From positions 1 through 32,359 of IMG/VR virus record IMGVR_UViG_3300035698_018667: a stretch of DNA of 32,359 bases, one strand, 5' to 3'. The position numbers and the translations under genes were made by a program. Positions 669 to 30,885 of this stretch are shown in pieces (the stretch's first letter is position 1; each line of letters opens with the position of its first letter). The notes under the pieces were generated by a model, which was not told the DNA's origin, did no database searches, and saw only the letters and a list, made by a program, of their open reading frames with translations. Source of the DNA: a virus.

Positions 669-927
669 AAAAATTTACACTGCTGAATAAGCAGCTTAGA
701 AAATTATCTGGTAAAAATTTACACTGCTGAATAAGCAGCTTAGAAAATTATCTTGTAAAAATTTACACTGCTGAATAAGCAGCTTAGAAAATTATCTTGT
801 AAAAATTTACACTGCTGAATAAGCAGCTTAGAAAATTATCGCGTAAAAATTTACACTGCTGAATAAGCAGCTTAGAAAATTATCTTGTAAAAATTTACAC
901 TGCTGAATAAGCAGCTTAGAAAATTAT
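669..927. repeat. Six-copy 44-bp tandem repeat array with internal palindromes
   Basis: Copies start at 669, 713, 757, 801, 845 and 889. Each has about 40 invariant bases, separated by a 4-base variable link (tggt, ttgt, ttgt, gcgt, ttgt). Each unit carries three symmetric elements: TGTAAAAATTTACA across the unit boundary (TGTAAA and TTTACA arms around AA, perfect where the link ends in TGT), CTGCT-GAATA-AGCAG, and TAAGCAGCTTA. The period is not a multiple of three and every frame hits stops, so the array is not coding. The 4-base links rule out a CRISPR array. Likely roles are binding sites for a phage protein (iteron-like origin or operator array) or a run of RNA hairpins. It fills most of the only gene-free stretch in the left cluster. 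Confidence 0.95.
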
Positions 928-6817: not shown

Positions 6818-8839
6818 CTACTTTCCTACCCTCACTTTATCCCTGTATTTCTCAGGATCTTGAGCGATGTCTTGATTGTCTACAGATACCGATTCCAGCA
6901 TATTCTTACCCGTAACAGGTAAAATATTCTCAATTGGCTCCCTCAAAAATCCTGCACCAGTAAGATTTTCAAGCGATCTTTCATTCACGATATTTTTGAA
7001 GTTTTGAGCCTGCTGTTTCATGGTGGGTAGGTCTGCTTTTAGCCATGCTTTGACAGAACTTGGGTCAGGAAAAACATTTTCCCAGTGCTTGAGTAGATTA
7101 CTTGTCAGCTTGTTACCGCCCAGGTATTCTCTATTATAGACATCCTGAAGTGCTGTAATCCTCTGTCTAATTAACGGTAGGGCTTGAACTTTTACGGATT
7201 TACCATCATCCCCGATTATATCAATAGTCACCTGTTCATAACCAAGAAGAGGGCCCGTAATCCCCTGTAAATTCTGAGCCATAGCAGCTCTCATACCAGG
7301 GTTTTGATCAGAAATTAAATTCATAATATCGACGACTTCATCAATAACTCTATTGGCATCCTTCATCTTCCCAAGTGCCTCTCGACCCTCTTTTGAAGCA
7401 TCCCTAAATCCAGTAATGTCTTCGTCATCCCTAAGAAGATTCGCGTCATACCATAGCGCTCTAGACTCATCTTTCGCGGTAATACCTATCTTATCTCCAA
7501 TACGTATCCCATCCCGACCCATTCTGACCTCTGGCTCACCGTTTGGCCCATCCGAAACATCCAAAACATCGTAATCGTTCAACAGCTTCTTCAATGCTGG
7601 ATTTTCGATGTTCTTGAATAGCTCAGCTCTTAGTTTCTGCCTGTCTTCATTGATCCCGCGCTTCTCTTTCTGTATACCACCAATTTTATCCATAATTTTG
7701 GAGTCAAACGCTCCTTGTTTGATCATGCTCTCCCCAATCCCTCTAACAGCACCACCCATCGACGAGACAAAACCCTCTCGTCCATACATCAGACCAACGA
7801 TTACGGGAAGTGCCAGAGCTATCCCAATTGCGACTTTATCCAGTCCTGTCATCTCTCCGTTTGTCATGCGATCACGTAAAGCGCTCTCATTCGCATCTAA
7901 TTGAGAGATATCAGCAGTAAGCGCGGCCTCAACAGTCTTTGCATGTTCCCATAACTCAACGGGAATGTCCCCAGATTTGAGCCTGAGAAGATTTGTTACT
8001 TGATCTACTATACCTGGATCTTGTCGTGCGACTTCTACGATTCCAGGAACAGGCTCAAGCCCCTCCACAGGAATATCTGACTCTGATACGCTCTCAAGTG
8101 GACCGCGATCAAAAGAATCTTCGACTGCTGGTGGAATTGGGATTTCTCCAGCAGTCGAATCTACGTCATCCGCAACTGTCTCTTGTCCAGAATCCAATCC
8201 AACTTCATTAGAGAGACCCTTTGCATCTGCGAAAAGCTCGTCACTTAATTCTCTCGTCTCTGCACGCTTGGTCGGACTCAGGTAATCCATAATAGAACCA
8301 CCGATCACCTGAAATGGAGATTTGGCACCCTGATCTTGCTCAGAGGCTACCTGCTCCTGCTGCTGTGCTTGTTGTGAGAATACACGCTGAGGATCTGGCT
8401 CGGTCTCAGAAAGCAGTTTAAGCGTCTCCTCTGGCACTAAGTCTATCAGTGACGGATCGGACTGCAGCTGGGCTCTAAGCGTCTCTAGCGGGTCCTGAAG
8501 CTGCCCAGGGCTATCTAAATAAGATCCGTATGGCGATGTCTCTGAAACAGCATCCAGAGCATCCTCACGAGCTTCCGTTTCAGCTAATCCACCAAGTAAC
8601 TCAAGACCCTCTGGAATTTCATTCTGATATAATTCAGGGTCGGATGGAACACGTGGGATATCTATTTGTCCTGAATCTACAGGCTGTTGAGCTGTGCCAC
8701 TCATATCTAGCTCATCCTGGTCTTGATACTTGGCTAAATCAGCAAGACCCTTCAGAGCATTCAGGGTATCCATGACTCCTGGATTGGATTGCTGCTCAAG
8801 ACTGTCTAGAGATTGAGAATTTATTCGTCTTTTAGCCAT
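6818..8839 (-). CDS. Internal virion-type protein with central membrane segment
   Basis: The 673-residue product has a long acidic, Gln/Ser/Pro-rich, probably disordered N-terminal half (many SESD, PIPP and EQDQ stretches) and a helical C-terminal half. A clear hydrophobic helix is at about residues 334-352 (VAIGIALALPVIVGLMYG), followed by a Gly-rich amphipathic stretch (SSMGGAVRGIGESM). In short-tailed phages, proteins at this map position enter the cell envelope during DNA ejection; the membrane helix fits this but sequence recognition is lacking. Its stop abuts the next start, and three bases separate it from the upstream gene. Confidence 0.6.
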   Translation of the reverse strand: MAKRRINSQSLDSLEQQSNPGVMDTLNALKGLADLAKYQDQDELDMSGTAQQPVDSGQIDIPRVPSDPELYQNEIPEGLELLGGLAETEAREDALDAVSETSPYGSYLDSPGQLQDPLETLRAQLQSDPSLIDLVPEETLKLLSETEPDPQRVFSQQAQQQEQVASEQDQGAKSPFQVIGGSIMDYLSPTKRAETRELSDELFADAKGLSNEVGLDSGQETVADDVDSTAGEIPIPPAVEDSFDRGPLESVSESDIPVEGLEPVPGIVEVARQDPGIVDQVTNLLRLKSGDIPVELWEHAKTVEAALTADISQLDANESALRDRMTNGEMTGLDKVAIGIALALPVIVGLMYGREGFVSSMGGAVRGIGESMIKQGAFDSKIMDKIGGIQKEKRGINEDRQKLRAELFKNIENPALKKLLNDYDVLDVSDGPNGEPEVRMGRDGIRIGDKIGITAKDESRALWYDANLLRDDEDITGFRDASKEGREALGKMKDANRVIDEVVDIMNLISDQNPGMRAAMAQNLQGITGPLLGYEQVTIDIIGDDGKSVKVQALPLIRQRITALQDVYNREYLGGNKLTSNLLKHWENVFPDPSSVKAWLKADLPTMKQQAQNFKNIVNERSLENLTGAGFLREPIENILPVTGKNMLESVSVDNQDIAQDPEKYRDKVRVGK

Positions 8840-14828: not shown

Positions 14829-14845
14829 TGTAAAGCAGCTTTACA
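14829..14845. promoter_or_regulatory. 17-bp palindrome TGTAAAGCAGCTTTACA
   Basis: The arms are perfect 8-base complements around a central A. It differs from the site inside the portal gene (21887) only at the central base. It includes the stop codon of the 77-residue gene and lies 33 bases upstream of the lipoprotein start. A leftward TATAAT at 14808-14813 with TTTACA 15 bases away was considered as a promoter, but the spacing is short and the start point would fall in the ribosome site. Confidence 0.65.
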
Positions 14846-19829: not shown

Positions 19830-21953
19830 CTATATCGGCGATAACTCTTGTGACCCTTCAATCGATCCGTCCACAGGCGTGTTTTCTTGCGCCATAGGAT
19901 CAGCATTTTGAAGAGCTGGATCTTCTATTTGAGGATTTGGTTCATTCAGGGGAATCGGAGAGTAAAACATAGGGAATTGACGCAGACCCTGAATTCTACT
20001 AGCGAAACTTGGATCTTCGACCATTTGCTCAAACATCAGCTTTTCTGTTGCGGTCATATGTTTTTCAAAAATTAGCTTAATGTTGTCAGGGGCTAATTTA
20101 TACTCCTGTGTCTGGAGAGGTATCCTATGAGTATCCCAGTGAGTAATAAGATCTTCATATCGTTCAGGAGGAGGCACAGGAATTCCATTCATCATATCCT
20201 CGTTCTCAGACTCTGCACTATTGACCGCTGCTGTCACTGCATTTTGAAATTTCTCACTGGTACTCAGACCGATCATATCTACAAAAACTTCGTTGCTCAT
20301 CAGCTCAGGGAACTCTCTCTTAATGGTCAGCATAAGCTGAGTTCTAGCAGCCTTGCTGTTAGCCAAATTCCCAGTCGTGGTGATTTTTACATCGTAGACT
20401 TTGCTTAAGTTTTCAGGGTCGAAGTACTTTAGGTTTACAGTGTTATTCCGTCCTGCAATCTTGATTAATCGCTGATCGTCAGCATCGTAATGATCTTTTG
20501 CGATTGTGATCATCAGTCGATACAGATGCTCTATTCCGGCAATATGGCCTTTTATGTCGGGACCCGCCTGTTGCACTCTAAGATCCTCAAAGTGCTGCAA
20601 GGCCACAAAGCTGTCTAACTGAGCGTTGGGAGTATCCCCTCGCTGCATTGGAGTCTGCTGACCCAGCTCAATGATGTTCTTCTTAAGGTCTTCGCGGAAT
20701 TTGAATATTGAGGAAGTGTTCGTGTTGGGAGTTTCAATGGTGGGTTTTTGATTCCCCCTCCACTCCATGACGACCACACCATTTGGCATTCTTTGTGCGT
20801 CTATGCCAGCTGTCTCATGTACTAAGATTTTAGGAGACTCAGCCTCAAGATTATTATACATCTGATTAGTGAGTCGATTGTATCCGACAATAGCTGGCAT
20901 CGCATTCCGAAATAACATCGGCGTGCCTCTCACACCAAATCCAATATCAAGATCTGTAAACCGGATGAGAGGAAGCTGGAGATTGTCTACAAGAGTGGGG
21001 TGATCTTTCATTGACTCATTAACAAGCACCTCGTCTTCAGTAGCAACAATGTGCCTTCCCTCATGTAAAAACTCATGAGATCGATGATAGAAGTGATATA
21101 CCCTTGTGTAATGATCGCCGCCCTTCGTTGTTCCGCTGACAGCATCGTACTTTTGTGTATTCTTCTTTTCTTCGAATTTTACTTCAGGATATTTCCGAGT
21201 AAGATAATCAGTCTCTACATAGTCAAGGTAGTAAAACCAATTTGCATCTGAGTAATTGGTCTTAGGGTCGATCATTACGTCAAATGAAATCGGATTACGC
21301 AGCTCTATATCGCCGATCCGCTGCCACTTATCAATCCAAATAGGATCTCCGTTATCATCGAGCACTCGTCTACCATCGTCGTCTACTAGTGCTATTTTAT
21401 CATCGTCGATGTCTCTGGACATCGGGTGTAATTCACCCTTATTCGGATTCCAGACGGGAACTACGAACGATTCACCAAAGATCTTTTTCTGTATCTCCCA
21501 TTTAATCCTCTGCATATCTATGCCCAGATCGTAGCTCATCGAGTCGAGCCACATCTTCACAAATTTAGCAGCGATCTTATCCTGATAATCATCATTATTC
21601 GGCAAGACCTGAGCTGTCAGCTCATTGCTAACTATGGTGGCCACTTGCTCCATGACCAACAGATACATCTCATTGATGTGTATCTCGTCAGGCTCGTTCT
21701 GCATTAGACCCTGGTTAAGGTACACGTTGACCAGGGGACTGAAGAAATTGGGGTTGACCCCCATAGCCATAAAGATTTTTAGATTGTTTTTTTGCTCTTT
21801 AAAAAGAGGATTATAATACGCGCTTAGTGCCGTATCTGCATCTTTTAGCCAATCCAATACATCTGAATCATTTTCGTAGTCGATGCTGTAAAGCGGCTTT
21901 ACATAAGGTAGATTTTTTTGGAGGTAAAACCTCTCTAGCTCTGGACGCGACAT
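19830..21953 (-). CDS. Portal protein
   Basis: The 707-residue product matches podoviral portal layout: N-terminal helices (DVLDWLKDADTALSAYYNPLFKEQKNNLKIFMAMGVNPNFFSPLVNVYLNQG), a wing region with KFVKMWLDSMSYDLGIDMQRIKWEIQKKIFGESFVVPVWNPNKGELHP, the segment YYLDYVETDYLTRKYPEVKFEEKK, a stem and clip section with DLDIGFGVRGTPMLFRNAMPAIVGYNRLTNQMYNNLEAESPKILVHE, and a helical crown with a Pro/Asn/Gln-rich end (EPNPQIEDPALQNADPMAQENTPVDG). Twelve copies would form the DNA channel that terminase docks onto. The start overlaps the stop of the upstream small gene (TAATG), and a GGAAGG ribosome site precedes it. A 17-bp palindrome lies inside its early codons. Confidence 0.85.
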   Translation of the reverse strand: MSRPELERFYLQKNLPYVKPLYSIDYENDSDVLDWLKDADTALSAYYNPLFKEQKNNLKIFMAMGVNPNFFSPLVNVYLNQGLMQNEPDEIHINEMYLLVMEQVATIVSNELTAQVLPNNDDYQDKIAAKFVKMWLDSMSYDLGIDMQRIKWEIQKKIFGESFVVPVWNPNKGELHPMSRDIDDDKIALVDDDGRRVLDDNGDPIWIDKWQRIGDIELRNPISFDVMIDPKTNYSDANWFYYLDYVETDYLTRKYPEVKFEEKKNTQKYDAVSGTTKGGDHYTRVYHFYHRSHEFLHEGRHIVATEDEVLVNESMKDHPTLVDNLQLPLIRFTDLDIGFGVRGTPMLFRNAMPAIVGYNRLTNQMYNNLEAESPKILVHETAGIDAQRMPNGVVVMEWRGNQKPTIETPNTNTSSIFKFREDLKKNIIELGQQTPMQRGDTPNAQLDSFVALQHFEDLRVQQAGPDIKGHIAGIEHLYRLMITIAKDHYDADDQRLIKIAGRNNTVNLKYFDPENLSKVYDVKITTTGNLANSKAARTQLMLTIKREFPELMSNEVFVDMIGLSTSEKFQNAVTAAVNSAESENEDMMNGIPVPPPERYEDLITHWDTHRIPLQTQEYKLAPDNIKLIFEKHMTATEKLMFEQMVEDPSFASRIQGLRQFPMFYSPIPLNEPNPQIEDPALQNADPMAQENTPVDGSIEGSQELSPI
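21887..21903. promoter_or_regulatory. 17-bp palindrome TGTAAAGCGGCTTTACA in the portal gene
   Basis: This is a perfect 8-base arm palindrome with a central G. It matches the site at 14829 at 16 of 17 bases. It sits about 50 bases inside the portal coding region, encoding VKPLY, where codon choice is free enough to avoid it. It may be a protein-binding site or a short mRNA hairpin. Confidence 0.6.
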
Positions 21954-23816: not shown

Positions 23817-24218
23817 CTAGCTAAGAGGGTCCTTCATTATAGATTGTTTAATTTTGGTGATTGCTGTGCTTAATCGCTCAAGGTCGCTGTATTTAATTAC
23901 CTCTGGCTCTAGCCAAGATATTTCTGCTAGTTCAAACGCTCTCTCGGCATCTACGAAAGGGTGATGACTAACGGTGTGCAATCGATCAATCACAACTAAC
24001 TTCAAACGAGCATGCGTGCTTGTGAAACCGTTAACATCTTTTTTATCTATCCACCGCATCACCCGCAATTTGTAGTCGATGTACATTTGGTCATCAACCT
24101 CCAGTTTGGGAATCTCTCCTGAACAGCAGCATAGGCGATCAAAACAGCTCATAGAGCCAATGTGAAAATGCAGCCCAAGCTCAGGAGCAATCGATATTCC
24201 GGTTATGACAAAACTCAC
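23817..24218 (-). CDS. Hypothetical protein with N-terminus shared with the wHTH gene
   Basis: The 133-residue product begins MSFVITGISIAPELG, nearly the same 15 residues as the gene at 25022-24453, and then diverges (LHFHIGSMSCFDRLCCCSGEIPKLEVDDQMYIDYKLRVMRWIDKKDV). It starts with GTG, whose first base overlaps the upstream stop (TAGTG), with AGGGGGA as ribosome site. It continues into a basic helix-rich region. The shared N-terminus lies at the edge of the 804-bp duplication, so this gene may be a fusion of a copied start region to another gene. Function unknown. Confidence 0.55.
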   Translation of the reverse strand: MSFVITGISIAPELGLHFHIGSMSCFDRLCCCSGEIPKLEVDDQMYIDYKLRVMRWIDKKDVNGFTSTHARLKLVVIDRLHTVSHHPFVDAERAFELAEISWLEPEVIKYSDLERLSTAITKIKQSIMKDPLS

Positions 24219-24502
24219 TAGTTCCCCCTAAGATTAGATAGGAATTTTTTAATCCCTTCTTGAAAATTCGGCATCTCGTATTCAAAGCAAGTGGGTTGAG
24301 CAGCTGACTTCTCGATCACAAATTCAACGTGCTTATTCAGCACATCACACACGTATCCAGGAGCATTTGGTCTGTGGTTTGGATAGAAGTGTTGCAGTGT
24401 CTCTGTAGCCCACTGCTTGTTGGTCGTAGCGATTTCTTCTTTCGGCACAATGTCATCCCACGTCTCCCAGGCCCCTAGAACTGCGAAGAGAAAAAAGCAC
24501 AC
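24218..24502 (-). pseudogene. Downstream fragment of a frameshifted copy of the replication-module gene
   Basis: The frame encodes AVLGAWETWDDIVPKEEIATTNKQWATETLQHFYPNHRPNAPGYVCDVLNKHVEFV...LSNLRGN, the same C-terminal module as the intact gene at 25022-25894 (VLGAWEAWDDIVPKEEI...LSNLRGN). It is separated from its N-terminal part by a 49-bp insertion that shifts the frame. A GTG at 24502 could start it (MCFFLFAVLGAW), but this uses the inserted sequence and has no convincing ribosome site. It is probably a remnant. Confidence 0.7.
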
Positions 24503-25022
24503 CCTCCCAGGTCTCCCAGGCCCCTAGAACGGCATTGCACGCTTTAGCGTCCGATTCCCTCGACTTCAAAGCGTTAACGCACTGAACGAGCTTATATGCA
24601 GTCTGAGCGTCCATTTTGGAAGAAAGCTCCCTCTTCATATTTCTGGATATGTCCAATTCATCAAAAATAGGGAAGACAACGACGACAGCCGCCGCAGGCT
24701 TTTCAGGCTCTGCCTGTTGTTGTTTTTTTAAATACGAAACCCTGTATTTTACGTTTCTCTTGAGATTGCCCTCCCTAATCTCCACTTTTTCCATGTAACC
24801 AAGCTGAATCAACTCGTCGAACGCCTTGTATACATGATTTCTTGAAATGTTCTTGGCTTTCCAGACACACTTAGGCTTGATAACCCAGTCCGGTTTGCAA
24901 GAGAGCAGGTAGATCAAGACCATGGTAGCGTCTGCAGACATGGTTGGATGCTGGCTTATTTCGTTGGGGATTATTGAACCAAGCTCAGGAGCAATCGATA
25001 TTCCGGTTATGCCAAAACTCAC
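24453..25022 (-). CDS. Second wHTH replication-type protein, truncated by the frameshift
   Basis: The 189-residue product has a winged-helix domain with LSADATMVLIYLLSCKPDWVIKPKCVWKAKNISRNHVYKAFDELIQLGYMEKVEIREGNLKRNVKYRV preceded by MSFGITGISIAPELGSIIPNEISQHPT, a Gln/Pro/Ala-rich linker (KKQQQAEPEKPAAAVVVVFP) and the first half of the shared module (IFDELDISRNMKRELSSKMDAQTAYKLVQCVNALKSRESDAKACNAVLGAWETW). It then runs out of frame at the 49-bp insertion (EGVLFSLRSSRGLGDVG). The N-terminal domain is different from that of the intact gene, so two N-termini share one C-module. GTG start, TAGTG overlap. It may be inactive or act as a shortened variant. Confidence 0.65.
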   Translation of the reverse strand: MSFGITGISIAPELGSIIPNEISQHPTMSADATMVLIYLLSCKPDWVIKPKCVWKAKNISRNHVYKAFDELIQLGYMEKVEIREGNLKRNVKYRVSYLKKQQQAEPEKPAAAVVVVFPIFDELDISRNMKRELSSKMDAQTAYKLVQCVNALKSRESDAKACNAVLGAWETWEGVLFSLRSSRGLGDVG

Positions 25023-25894
25023 TAGTTCCCCCTAAGATTAGATAGGAATTTTTTAATCTCTTCTTGAAAATTCGGCATCTCGTACTTAAAGCAAACGGGT
25101 TGAGCAGCTGACTTCGCGATCACAAATTCAACGTGCTTATTCAGCACATCACACACGTATCCAGGAGCATTTGGTCTGTGGTTTGGATAGAAGTGTTGTA
25201 ATCTCTCTGTAGCCCACTCCTTGTTCGTCATAATTATTTCTTCTTTCGGCACAATGTCATCCCAGGCCTCCCAGGCCCCTAGAACGGCATTGCACGCTTT
25301 AGCGTCCGATTCCCTCGACTTCCAGGCTTTAACGCGCTGAACGAGCTTATATGCAGCCTGAGCGTCAATCTTGGACGATAGCTGCTTCTTCATATCTCTG
25401 GATATGTTCAATTCATCAAAAATAGGAAAGACAACGACGACAGCCGCCGCAGGCTTTTCAGGCTCGCTCTGTTGTTGTCTTTCATTCTTACTTAAAGAGT
25501 CTTTCTTAATAGGACCTGGTTTCACCTGATCGGGGGATTCACCGGCAAGGAGGTTTCCACCGTTTCGGTAACTTTTTTTGAATTCTTCGTCTGATATGGG
25601 GTCTTCAAAGAAGTGCCAATCTAGTCCCGTGAACTGTCCATTAGTATCGTTATGTCGCATAGCTCTATGTAGATACCCGGCATTTTCAAGCTCCTTAAGT
25701 CCAGAATTGAATGAGGTTTCTCCGTCCGTGCAATGCGCCATCATCTCAGACTTGTAGAATGTCCAGTCGTCGGGCCTGGAGAATGCTATCGACAGAAGTC
25801 CTTTAGCCTTTAGAGAGATAGAAGAGTCAAAAACGATTGACTTGCTGAGTCTTACGAAGGGATCTTTTCTTTTATGAGAGTGACATAATGTCAT
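25022..25894 (-). CDS. Winged-helix replication-initiation / replisome-organiser type protein
   Basis: The 290-residue product starts at ATG 25894 (AGGA 10 bases upstream); TTG 25930 would add 12 residues. The N-terminal domain reads FVRLSKSIVFDSSISLKAKGLLSIAFSRPDDWTFYKSEMMAHCTDGETSFNSGLKELENAGYLHRA, the classic wHTH of phage and plasmid replication proteins (LS.KAKGLL...S.PDDW, G......L.ELE..GYL). A Pro/Gln linker and a helical C-module follow. Such proteins bind the replication origin and help load helicase; no helicase loader is seen next to it. It is the first gene of the leftward unit and is likely regulated by the operator at 25941. Confidence 0.7.
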   Translation of the reverse strand: MTLCHSHKRKDPFVRLSKSIVFDSSISLKAKGLLSIAFSRPDDWTFYKSEMMAHCTDGETSFNSGLKELENAGYLHRAMRHNDTNGQFTGLDWHFFEDPISDEEFKKSYRNGGNLLAGESPDQVKPGPIKKDSLSKNERQQQSEPEKPAAAVVVVFPIFDELNISRDMKKQLSSKIDAQAAYKLVQRVKAWKSRESDAKACNAVLGAWEAWDDIVPKEEIIMTNKEWATERLQHFYPNHRPNAPGYVCDVLNKHVEFVIAKSAAQPVCFKYEMPNFQEEIKKFLSNLRGN

Positions 25895-25933
25895 ATTGAT
25901 TTGTCCTGTCACCAGGAAGAATGAGGCCAAATG

Positions 25934-26535: not shown

Positions 26536-26922
26536 ATGTGGAATTGGTTCAGAGAATACTTCCTGAATTGTGAAGGGGAAGAGGATAGTGATATTGAAAA
26601 AGTATGGGCAGATCTTGAAGGCAGCATAAGTATTACCTTGTCGATTGTTATGCGTGACGGATCAACCCACAAACGAATCGCTAGAATACACCAAGATGAT
26701 GTGGGATCATGGAAAGATGATGCAATTATAAAAATAACAAGCCCAGACAATCGATGGTTCTGCTTAGAGGATTCAGATGATCATATAGATATCCGGTTGT
26801 TTCATATCCCTGATATAATCAGCGTGTCTATTAAACAAATGCCAATTTTTATTCTATACAAGGGAGAAAAAGCTAGAAACAAAATCACACAGTATTTTGA
26901 AGATAACAAGGACTTTTCTTAA
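26536..26922 (+). CDS. Hypothetical acidic protein
   Basis: The 128-residue product starts MWNWFREYFLNCEGEEDSDIEKVWADLEGSISITLSIVMRDGSTHKRIARIHQDDVGSW and later has DNRWFCLEDSDDHIDIRLFHIPDIISVSIKQMPIFILYKGEKARNKITQYF. It is a beta-rich acidic protein with no signal peptide. AGAGGACGAG gives a ribosome site. Two bases separate it from the following Cys-rich gene. Not recognised. Confidence 0.65.
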   Translation: MWNWFREYFLNCEGEEDSDIEKVWADLEGSISITLSIVMRDGSTHKRIARIHQDDVGSWKDDAIIKITSPDNRWFCLEDSDDHIDIRLFHIPDIISVSIKQMPIFILYKGEKARNKITQYFEDNKDFS

Positions 26923-27679: not shown

Positions 27680-27782
27680 AGATACGTACAAAAACAGAAA
27701 AGAGCCTGTATTGGAATACGTGAAAACGTTTGTATTGTGTGTGGGATTCCTCTTCGCTCTGAAGATGGTAATGCCGCTATGA
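27615..27782 (+). CDS. Small two-helix membrane protein (holin-like)
   Basis: ATG 27615 has AAAGGAAAATC upstream and gives 55 residues: MIVDLAISICFGALIASSCIIRDTYKNRKEPVLEYVKTFVLCVGFLFALKMVMPL. It has two membrane segments (about 2-21 and 37-55) with a charged turn between, the topology of small class II holins. No endolysin is found next to it, so the lysis role is only a possibility. It overlaps the previous gene in another frame and the next by four bases (ATGA). Confidence 0.5.
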   Translation: MIVDLAISICFGALIASSCIIRDTYKNRKEPVLEYVKTFVLCVGFLFALKMVMPL

Positions 27783-28165
27783 AATCAATAATCATTATTC
27801 TGATATCCCTGTCATTCTCACTTCTGTCTAACCCTGTATCCGAGAGACGTATAGAGATCTGTAACGAGTACAACGCCGAGCTAGATTCCCTGTTGTCCGT
27901 AGATATTGCTAAAGCCACCAAGAGCGCCATAACGGGATCTATTGCAGCATCACCCTGTAAGCGCCCAGAAATCATTGTAGCTACTGGAGTGTGTGCTGCT
28001 GCTATCTCTATTATCGACGACTCGTACTCTCACTATGAGACTATGAGGGATCTCACTGAAGAATATCATTCATTAGATAGTCAGATGAGTGAAAATTTAC
28101 AGAGACTGAATAATCCTGGGCCATACATCAGCGATCCTGGATATGATTACTCATACTTAAACTAA
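27779..28165 (+). CDS. Exported or membrane-anchored protein with duplicated tail
   Basis: The start is ATG 27779 (overlap ATGA), giving 128 residues. The N-terminus MKSIIIILISLSFSLLSNPVSERR looks like a signal peptide with possible cleavage after LLSN or a membrane anchor. A second hydrophobic run (IIVATGVCAAAISIIDDS) is in the middle. The C-terminus MSENLQRLNNPGPYISDPGYDYSYLN is repeated as a separate 26-residue frame at 28575. The function is unknown; with the upstream two-helix protein it could form an envelope-acting pair. Confidence 0.6.
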   Translation: MKSIIIILISLSFSLLSNPVSERRIEICNEYNAELDSLLSVDIAKATKSAITGSIAASPCKRPEIIVATGVCAAAISIIDDSYSHYETMRDLTEEYHSLDSQMSENLQRLNNPGPYISDPGYDYSYLN

Positions 28166-30410: not shown

Positions 30411-30680
30411 ATGGATGATATAGTCACAACCACTTTTCACATCGAGAAAGCGCGGCACAAAAAGTTCAAGAAAATCGTCTTCGAAAAAGATCTTACTATT
30501 AAGGCAGCATGCCACGAAATGATTGACCGCTGGATTGAGGACTATCAGGATCAGACGGATCTACATTTAATTGAGTCATGGGATAGGCTATCGATGAGTA
30601 AGGGAACAGAAAGCTGGAATAGTTTTAAAAGGAGAAATGGGCTGGATGGGATACAAGATTATGGTAACAAGAACGGCTAA
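30411..30680 (+). CDS. Ribbon-helix-helix antitoxin
   Basis: The 89-residue product has TTTFHIEKARHKKFKKIVFEKDLTIKAACHEMIDRWIEDYQ: a short strand, two helices, the scheme of the Arc/MetJ/CopG fold. The C-terminal part (LHLIESWDRLSMSKGTESWNSFKRRNGLDGIQDYG) would cover the toxin. It represses its own operon in known pairs by binding the promoter with toxin as co-repressor. An AGGATGAGG ribosome site is good. It overlaps the toxin gene by 44 bases. Confidence 0.75.
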   Translation: MDDIVTTTFHIEKARHKKFKKIVFEKDLTIKAACHEMIDRWIEDYQDQTDLHLIESWDRLSMSKGTESWNSFKRRNGLDGIQDYGNKNG

Positions 30681-30885
30681 AAAAGATATCGATCAGCTTC
30701 TCCCCTGTGAGGTCAAGTCGGTCACAACAGCAATCGATCTAATGGAATCGATAGGTCAGATGGGAGAGCCTATTCATCCGAAAATCAATGTATGGATCTA
30801 TAGGGTAGGTAAGGTGAGGATTATCTATAAGCTCCTCAGTAATGAAATTAGGGTGATAAAAATAGCCAGGGGATCAAACCCCTGA
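30637..30885 (+). CDS. RelE/ParE-type toxin
   Basis: The 82-residue product reads YKIMVTRTAKKDIDQLLPCEVKSVTTAIDLMESIGQ...HPKINVWIYRVGKVRIIYKLLSNEIRVIKIARGSNP. It has the RelE/ParE fold order: first strand, two helices with KD...LP, and strands YRVGKVRIIY and IRVIKIA, with basic residues in the last strands. RelE-type members cut mRNA in the ribosome and ParE-type members poison gyrase; the catalytic set of this one cannot be decided. The start has AAAGGAGAA directly upstream inside the antitoxin gene, ensuring coupling. The stop lies in a hairpin that also serves the convergent gene. Confidence 0.75.
   Translation: MGWMGYKIMVTRTAKKDIDQLLPCEVKSVTTAIDLMESIGQMGEPIHPKINVWIYRVGKVRIIYKLLSNEIRVIKIARGSNP
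30858..30884 (-). terminator. Rho-independent terminator (leftward)
   Basis: CAGGGG (30867-30872) pairs with CCCCTG (30879-30884) around ATCAAA. In the leftward direction it is followed by GCTA and five Ts (complement of 30858-30862). It lies within the last codons of the toxin gene and ends the convergent gene at 30893. Confidence 0.65.

Follow-up and report, generated by a model that had tools for sequence, protein, structure and literature searches.

The window analysed here, the whole 32,359-bp stretch of a virus record from a tailed phage, carries between two of its genes an array of six copies of a type I-F CRISPR repeat, spaced exactly 44 bp apart. Its probable products are small RNAs that serve as dummy guides and sequester bacterial CRISPR proteins; we consider it likely that it serves as a multi-dose RNA anti-CRISPR, whose 'dead' mini-crRNAs occupy the Cas proteins of the host. 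This reading is supported by the identity of the repeat, the short-spacer architecture, the recurrence of this architecture in about 40 other phage contigs, the near-absence of Cas6f from them and their association with anti-I-F genes.

Tandem Repeats Finder reported the array at 669-927 as by far the strongest tandem array of the window (period 44, 5.9 copies, 97% matches, score 497). The exact 44-bp spacing confirmed the regular six-copy array described in a first-pass annotation of this DNA, which was also right in calling it non-coding: the array is intergenic, between the gene boundaries at 629 and 1024, and lies on the same strand as both neighbouring genes. The six 28-bp repeats are mutually identical, and a repeat stands at both ends of the array. 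All variation falls in the five 16-bp links, where it is confined to spacer positions 7-8 (TG, TT, TT, GC and TT), so that the links read ATTATC(TG/TT/TT/GC/TT)GTAAAAAT. The annotation had divided the unit into 40 invariant bases and 4-base links; this layout is equivalent to ours, but two of the four link bases are invariant too, which brings the invariant positions to 42 out of 44. The copy number rests on assembly, since the contig is metagenomic. No strong promoter or terminator was found flanking the array. The features are as follows:

216-629, + strand: DUF6876 gene upstream of the array (Pfam PF21781, E 2.3e-26)
669-938, + strand: complete array (six CRISPR repeats, type I-F-like, five short spacers and incomplete spacers at the edges)
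675-702, + strand: I-F repeat mimic 1, TTACA CTGCT GAATA AGCAG CTTAGAAA (stem, loop and 8-nt handle; Rfam RF01317 and fold)
703-718, + strand: 16-nt pseudo-spacer 1, ATTATCTGGTAAAAAT
719-746, + strand: I-F repeat mimic 2 (Rfam RF01317)
747-762, + strand: 16-nt pseudo-spacer 2, ATTATCTTGTAAAAAT
763-790, + strand: I-F repeat mimic 3 (Rfam RF01317)
791-806, + strand: 16-nt pseudo-spacer 3, ATTATCTTGTAAAAAT
807-834, + strand: I-F repeat mimic 4 (Rfam RF01317)
835-850, + strand: 16-nt pseudo-spacer 4, ATTATCGCGTAAAAAT
851-878, + strand: I-F repeat mimic 5 (Rfam RF01317)
879-894, + strand: 16-nt pseudo-spacer 5, ATTATCTTGTAAAAAT
895-922, + strand: I-F repeat mimic 6, handle intact; similarity stops 5 nt downstream (Rfam RF01317)
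1024-1251, + strand: small orphan gene, first downstream of the array, 47% identical to 1284-1532; no family found
1284-1532, + strand: paralogue of 1024-1251, a candidate accessory or anti-defence gene by position alone

Each unit contains TTACA-CTGCT-GAATA-AGCAG-CTTAGAAA, with a paired stem around a GNNNA loop, followed by the handle. All six repeats match the Rfam family CRISPR-DR4 (RF01317, consensus GUUCACUGCCGcACAGGCAGCUUAGAAA) over its full length, at 28 out of 28 positions and with every stem pair standard, and all six carry the paired 5-bp stem and the 8-nt handle CTNAGAAA. In a 401-base search the match scored 32.1 bits (E = 1.8e-5), slightly below the curated gathering score of 35 for CRISPR-DR4, and the gathering search of the whole window therefore missed the array. 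Judged by its sequence, the repeat is a mimic, and with a score under the cut-off it is not filed as a member of the family. The 28-mer folds as a single 5-bp hairpin, resembling the fold of the Pseudomonas repeat. The window has six occurrences of a perfect 5-bp hairpin with CT.AGAAA after it, all of them in the array, while 0.005 occurrences are expected per shuffled window. The three symmetries that had been described for the unit are the I-F stem, the overlap of stem and handle (TAAGCAGCTTA) and, where spacer and repeat join, a palindrome that is either structural or due to chance. CTGCT/AGCAG is present in every unit, as had been stated, but the full TGTAAA/TTTACA palindrome is found in only three of the five links; GTAAAAATTTAC is present in all five.

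The claim that the array is not CRISPR did not hold for the unit, which is a full-length type I-F repeat match, but it stood for the array. A functional CRISPR array would have unique spacers of about 32 nt and cas genes in cis, whereas the spacers here are 16 nt long and near-identical, and no Cas6f was found in the window. With spacers of half the length, nearly the same in every link, and without cas6f, this is not a normal CRISPR array. No PAM-flanked seed match to the spacers was found elsewhere in the window, and the genomes of relatives gave only partial matches, 12 of 16 at best.

The exact 37-nt pattern had no match in IMG/VR and the window DNA had none among phages in distant mode; as to the host, the single genome match is a contig within a Bacteroidales MAG, possibly mis-binned. 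IMG/VR was scanned for I-F repeats, and then for an I-F repeat with a second I-F hairpin at a short or long distance. The hairpin pairs were spaced either by 60/61 bp (254 pairs), which are normal arrays, or by 42-49 bp, with none at 50-51 or 55-59 bp; a third, looser group lies at 64-66 bp. I-F repeats 42-49 bp apart, corresponding to spacers of 14-21 nt, occur in about 40 phage contigs besides the window, and 16-19 nt is common among these spacers. Counted by distinct spacer and excluding the window, this short group comprises 46 spacers at 38 loci: six at 42 bp, one each at 43, 44 and 45 bp, seven at 46, eight at 47, 11 at 48 and five at 49 bp, where a locus may count at two spacings. Most loci have two hairpins and the largest others have five, four and three, so the six copies of the window form the largest array found. 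The second hairpin is often without a handle (intact in 13 of 46), and several of the elements run into a terminator. The loops are nearly all GNNNA. The fifth stem pair, which was left free in the search patterns, is complementary in all 48 first hairpins and in all 48 second ones (37 C-G and 11 T-A), indicating that the RNA hairpin is under selection. The spacers are mostly unrelated to one another. As to their composition (n = 46), base 1 is A/T in 96% and base 5 in 89%, compared with 75% and 57% in normal I-F spacers, and the seed ATGATGTG recurs in several loci. For type I-E, one strict pattern used with no positive control, and hence a weak search, gave 0 matches.

Cas6f is absent from 39 of the 40 short-class records, an absence that is weak for several short fragments; the exception is L150 (record G034), which encodes it at 48407-49021. 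AcrIF8 (Pfam AcrF8) is encoded by six of the 40 short-class records and by none of 73 records with normally spaced or other I-F repeats (p = 0.0015, for whole records and uncorrected for kinship). All six belong to the seven loci with 42-43-bp spacing (p = 2.5e-6), and perhaps not all of them are independent by descent. AcrF8 also heads the list of Pfam neighbours within about 900 bp in both halves of the set, in one instance level with DUF2514, and one neighbour matched Aca2. In the Pseudomonas phages IME307 and LESphi3, the order is hairpin, 18 nt, hairpin and terminator, directly behind a gene that in LESphi3 is annotated as AcrIF24. Their handle, CTAAGAAA, is presumably the Pseudomonas form. 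Plasmids gave related matches: on the Salmonella plasmid pRSE40 (L205, 1449-1610), three I-F hairpins spaced by 48 and 46 bp and a terminator adjoin an antirestriction gene, and further matches lie on Thiomicrorhabdus and Shewanella plasmids (L204 and L206), the Shewanella one near a DUF1870 gene. Beside the array of the window, no acr or aca gene was recognised with Pfam, NCBIfam, PHROGs, PADLOC or Aca2, and the AlphaFold model of the downstream orphan (pLDDT 47) was unusable. An acr gene near solitary RNA anti-CRISPRs (Racrs) is frequent and not obligatory.

From these features we infer how the array may be transcribed, processed, assembled into complexes and made inhibitory. Transcription would run rightward, as part of the early operon, and host Cas6f (Csy4) would bind every CTGCT-GAATA-AGCAG hairpin and cleave the RNA at the 3' base of the hairpin, after 694, 738, 782, 826, 870 and 914. 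The cuts would release five 44-nt RNAs, each with a normal 8-nt 5' handle CUUAGAAA, a meaningless 16-nt guide and a normal 3' hairpin. As both ends of such an RNA are authentic, it should draw Cas5f/Cas8f, Cas6f and some three copies of Cas7f into a short Cascade. Cascades with a 16-nt guide could not license Cas2/3 and would hardly bind a target, so that the Cas proteins would be held in inert complexes. The cognate host would have a type I-F repeat that is TTACACTGCTGAATAAGCAGCTTAGAAA-like. Of the three options offered in the first-pass annotation, a hairpin RNA has the most support; a titration array also agrees in spirit, if RNA is taken to be what titrates the Cas proteins.

The length of the spacers can be compared with laboratory results. 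In I-F1 Cascade, the spacer length is 6N-4 for N Cas7 subunits, and spacers as short as about 14 nt still allow the complex to assemble (PMC7296934). The full 32-nt spacer is needed for Cas2/3 to fire: a spacer just 6 nt shorter no longer activates Cas2/3, and shortening by at least 18 nt leaves no detectable protection in vivo (PMC7296934). By analogy, the 14-21 nt of the short class would be enough for assembly and too short for action. We lean towards the broader proposal that phages evolved a distinct RNA anti-CRISPR, namely truncated-crRNA arrays with 14-21-nt guides that are matured by Cas6f and form short, nuclease-incompetent type I-F Cascades, the guide length lying between the assembly limit (~14 nt) and Cas2/3 licensing and the window carrying a six-copy, high-dose form. 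A counterpoint to the decoy reading is that 16 nt is off the ideal 6N-4 lengths of 14 and 20 nt.

The strongest rival, which we regard as unlikely, is a regulatory mini-crRNA: the short guides would steer host Cascade to a promoter, which would be repressed but not cut, as with CreR/CreA, and the promoter could for example be that of the cas operon of the host, of a CreT-type toxin or of a rival phage. Truncated I-F Cascades do still make R-loops (PMC7296934), and the bias of the class spacers at positions 1 and 5 would suit such guides, as would the I-F locus of E. coli 503025, which itself holds an RNA of this kind between cas3f and csy1. However, a Cascade with a 14-nt spacer gave in vivo protection no higher than the non-targeting control (PMC7296934). 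The guides of the class also differ mostly from locus to locus while the six copies of the window share one, and they match E. coli I-F promoters by a short seed at most, at one locus; the lack, elsewhere in the window, of a seed match with a PAM argues in the same direction. As for the E. coli element (NZ_CP025892, L202, 19255-19584, reverse strand), the cas3f-csy1 gap contains a repeat, a 25-nt spacer and a hairpin. Next to a CC PAM, its spacer matches the region upstream of csy1 at 12 of its first 14 bases, the mismatches being only at positions 6 and 12, and on this match it looks like a CreR-type autorepressor.

Another explanation, to which we likewise give a low probability, follows RacrIF1: the hairpins would be repeat mimics, and the RNA upstream of them would gather Cas6f and a long Cas7f filament without Cas5f and Cas8f, and the short spacing would be incidental. 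RacrIF1-3 inhibit I-F systems and the mechanism has been demonstrated for RacrIF1, whose active product is the handle-less RNA upstream of the cut (PMC10651486), so that handle-bearing fragments may not be the inhibitor. Yet every hairpin of the array after the first is preceded by a unit with an intact handle, and therefore only the first can yield a handle-less product. The strict 42-49-bp spacing across many phages would also go unexplained.

The window encodes an internal virion protein, a major head protein, a large terminase, a Gp2.5-like SSB, a RuvC-like resolvase and replication initiators. Seven relatives, with major head proteins 69-83% identical, were compared, and no I-F repeat was found in any of them. 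The DUF6876 gene has homologues without an array in G001 and G007, and in G001 an unrelated gene starts 8 bp after it. From the absence of the repeat in the relatives and this gene order, the array is an accessory in a variable stretch.

An iteron-type replication origin, as had been suggested, or a partition centromere is very improbable for the array. Direct repeats in an intergenic gap would suit either, and the relatives have ParA with a small protein that is RHH-like by eye, as well as repeat-rich ends. The units, however, are I-F repeats, which the seven relatives lack, and four of the relatives have 22-23-bp iterons at the initiator gene. The GC-skew check proposed for an origin gave no sign of one, the skew turning with gene orientation and transcription and not at the array, and the origin was rejected. 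So was the centromere: ParA is present in relatives only, with none found in the window. The iteron-like repeats, in or beside the initiator gene at 25462-25505 of G002, 8082-8148 of G003, 27782-27853 of G006 and 26787-26838 of G007, are themselves likely origins. A ParA-like ATPase gene followed by the small RHH-like gene stands at the right end of G001 (38014-39074), G006 (34563-35626) and G007 (37828-38885; L008, L028 and L030), which suggests that these relatives are phage-plasmids. The ends of the relatives' contigs also have short palindromes, possibly hairpin telomeres.

Several further observations were made in these genomes. In the window, a replication-initiator gene is partly duplicated at 24218-25930: identity to the 302-aa initiator is 90% for a 94-aa piece and 67% for part of a 189-aa copy. 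An overlapping pair at 30411-30885 resembles by eye an antitoxin and a RelE/ParE-like toxin; it has distant homologues in G005 and no meaningful NCBIfam match. The left end of G002 (L009, 588-1107) has two genes with GATGGC-type repeats coding for Asp-Gly-rich proteins. TTTACA/TGTAAA sites occur in a 45-bp array at the right end of G002 (L010, 10765-10866), as TTTACA repeats at the left end of G005, and in two palindromes of the window, 14829-14845 (TGTAAAGCAGCTTTACA) and 21887-21903 (TGTAAAGCGGCTTTACA); they are possibly a shared operator. The idea that this TGTAAA motif of G002 and the two palindromes is shared with the unit of the array was dropped, since the I-F match accounts for the unit.

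Finally, it is hardly credible that the array is a captured fragment of a real host CRISPR array or an assembly artefact. Its repeats are of authentic I-F type and the contig is metagenomic, but real I-F spacers are 32-33 nt long and distinct, unlike the near-identical 16-nt spacers of this array. The assembler resolved the copies, as the link variants TG/TT/GC show, and about 40 contigs and two isolate phages share the short architecture.

In the openly licensed literature, with subscription papers and preprints mostly outside this coverage, no account of phage-borne I-F arrays with short spacers was found. RNA anti-CRISPRs have been described as solitary repeats, and the search behind them discarded repeats within 100 bp of each other. 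The window and about 40 other contigs suggest that a whole architecture was missed in this way, namely pairs and arrays with short spacers, a few of which lie beside AcrIF8 or AcrIF24. Their 14-21 nt coincide with the lengths at which the I-F complex forms but cannot act. This provides a simple, testable mechanism and a way of recognising anti-CRISPR loci from sequence only.

The closest known systems are RacrIF1-RacrIF3, which are likewise phage-borne, intergenic I-F repeat mimics without cas genes and have the same hairpin and C6-G20 pair (PMC10651486); as with Racrs, the wider short-spacer class adjoins acr genes. The array shares with Racrs the similarity to a CRISPR repeat, the intergenic position in a mobile element and the absence of cas genes. 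Racrs are by definition solitary, with no other repeat within 100 bp, whereas the window has six tandem repeats at 44 bp with 16-nt spacers and handles intact on both sides. On its proposed function the array would work like a Racr, but, as its repeats are not solitary, it is not a member as defined. In the Racr search, full repeat matches within 100 bp were clustered as arrays and discarded (PMC10651486), and the short-spacer class would therefore have been dropped. Unlike known Racrs, the array is predicted to give complete 44-nt mini-crRNAs, and its decoys are proposed to include Cas5f and Cas8f, both of which are missing from the RacrIF1 complex (PMC10651486). Viral mini-CRISPR arrays also imitate the host repeat without cas genes, but their spacers match related viruses (PMC11656645), whereas those of the window are 16 nt, near-identical and with no target found. 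CreR and CreA are similar in being crRNA-like RNAs that use host Cascade with a spacer not meant for cleavage; they reside in the CRISPR-cas loci of hosts, where they match a promoter (PMC12737573), and no such match was found for the window. In the phages vB_PaS_IME307 (MN096267) and LESphi3 (OQ594956), the I-F hairpins are similarly close, 46 bp apart with an 18-nt spacer, but there are two hairpins and a terminator, the second hairpin being without a handle and the first stem of LESphi3 having one mismatch, in place of six full repeats. The I-F1 Cascades with truncated spacers share the shortened spacers between I-F repeats and are laboratory constructs (PMC7296934), of which the window and its class appear to be the natural counterparts.
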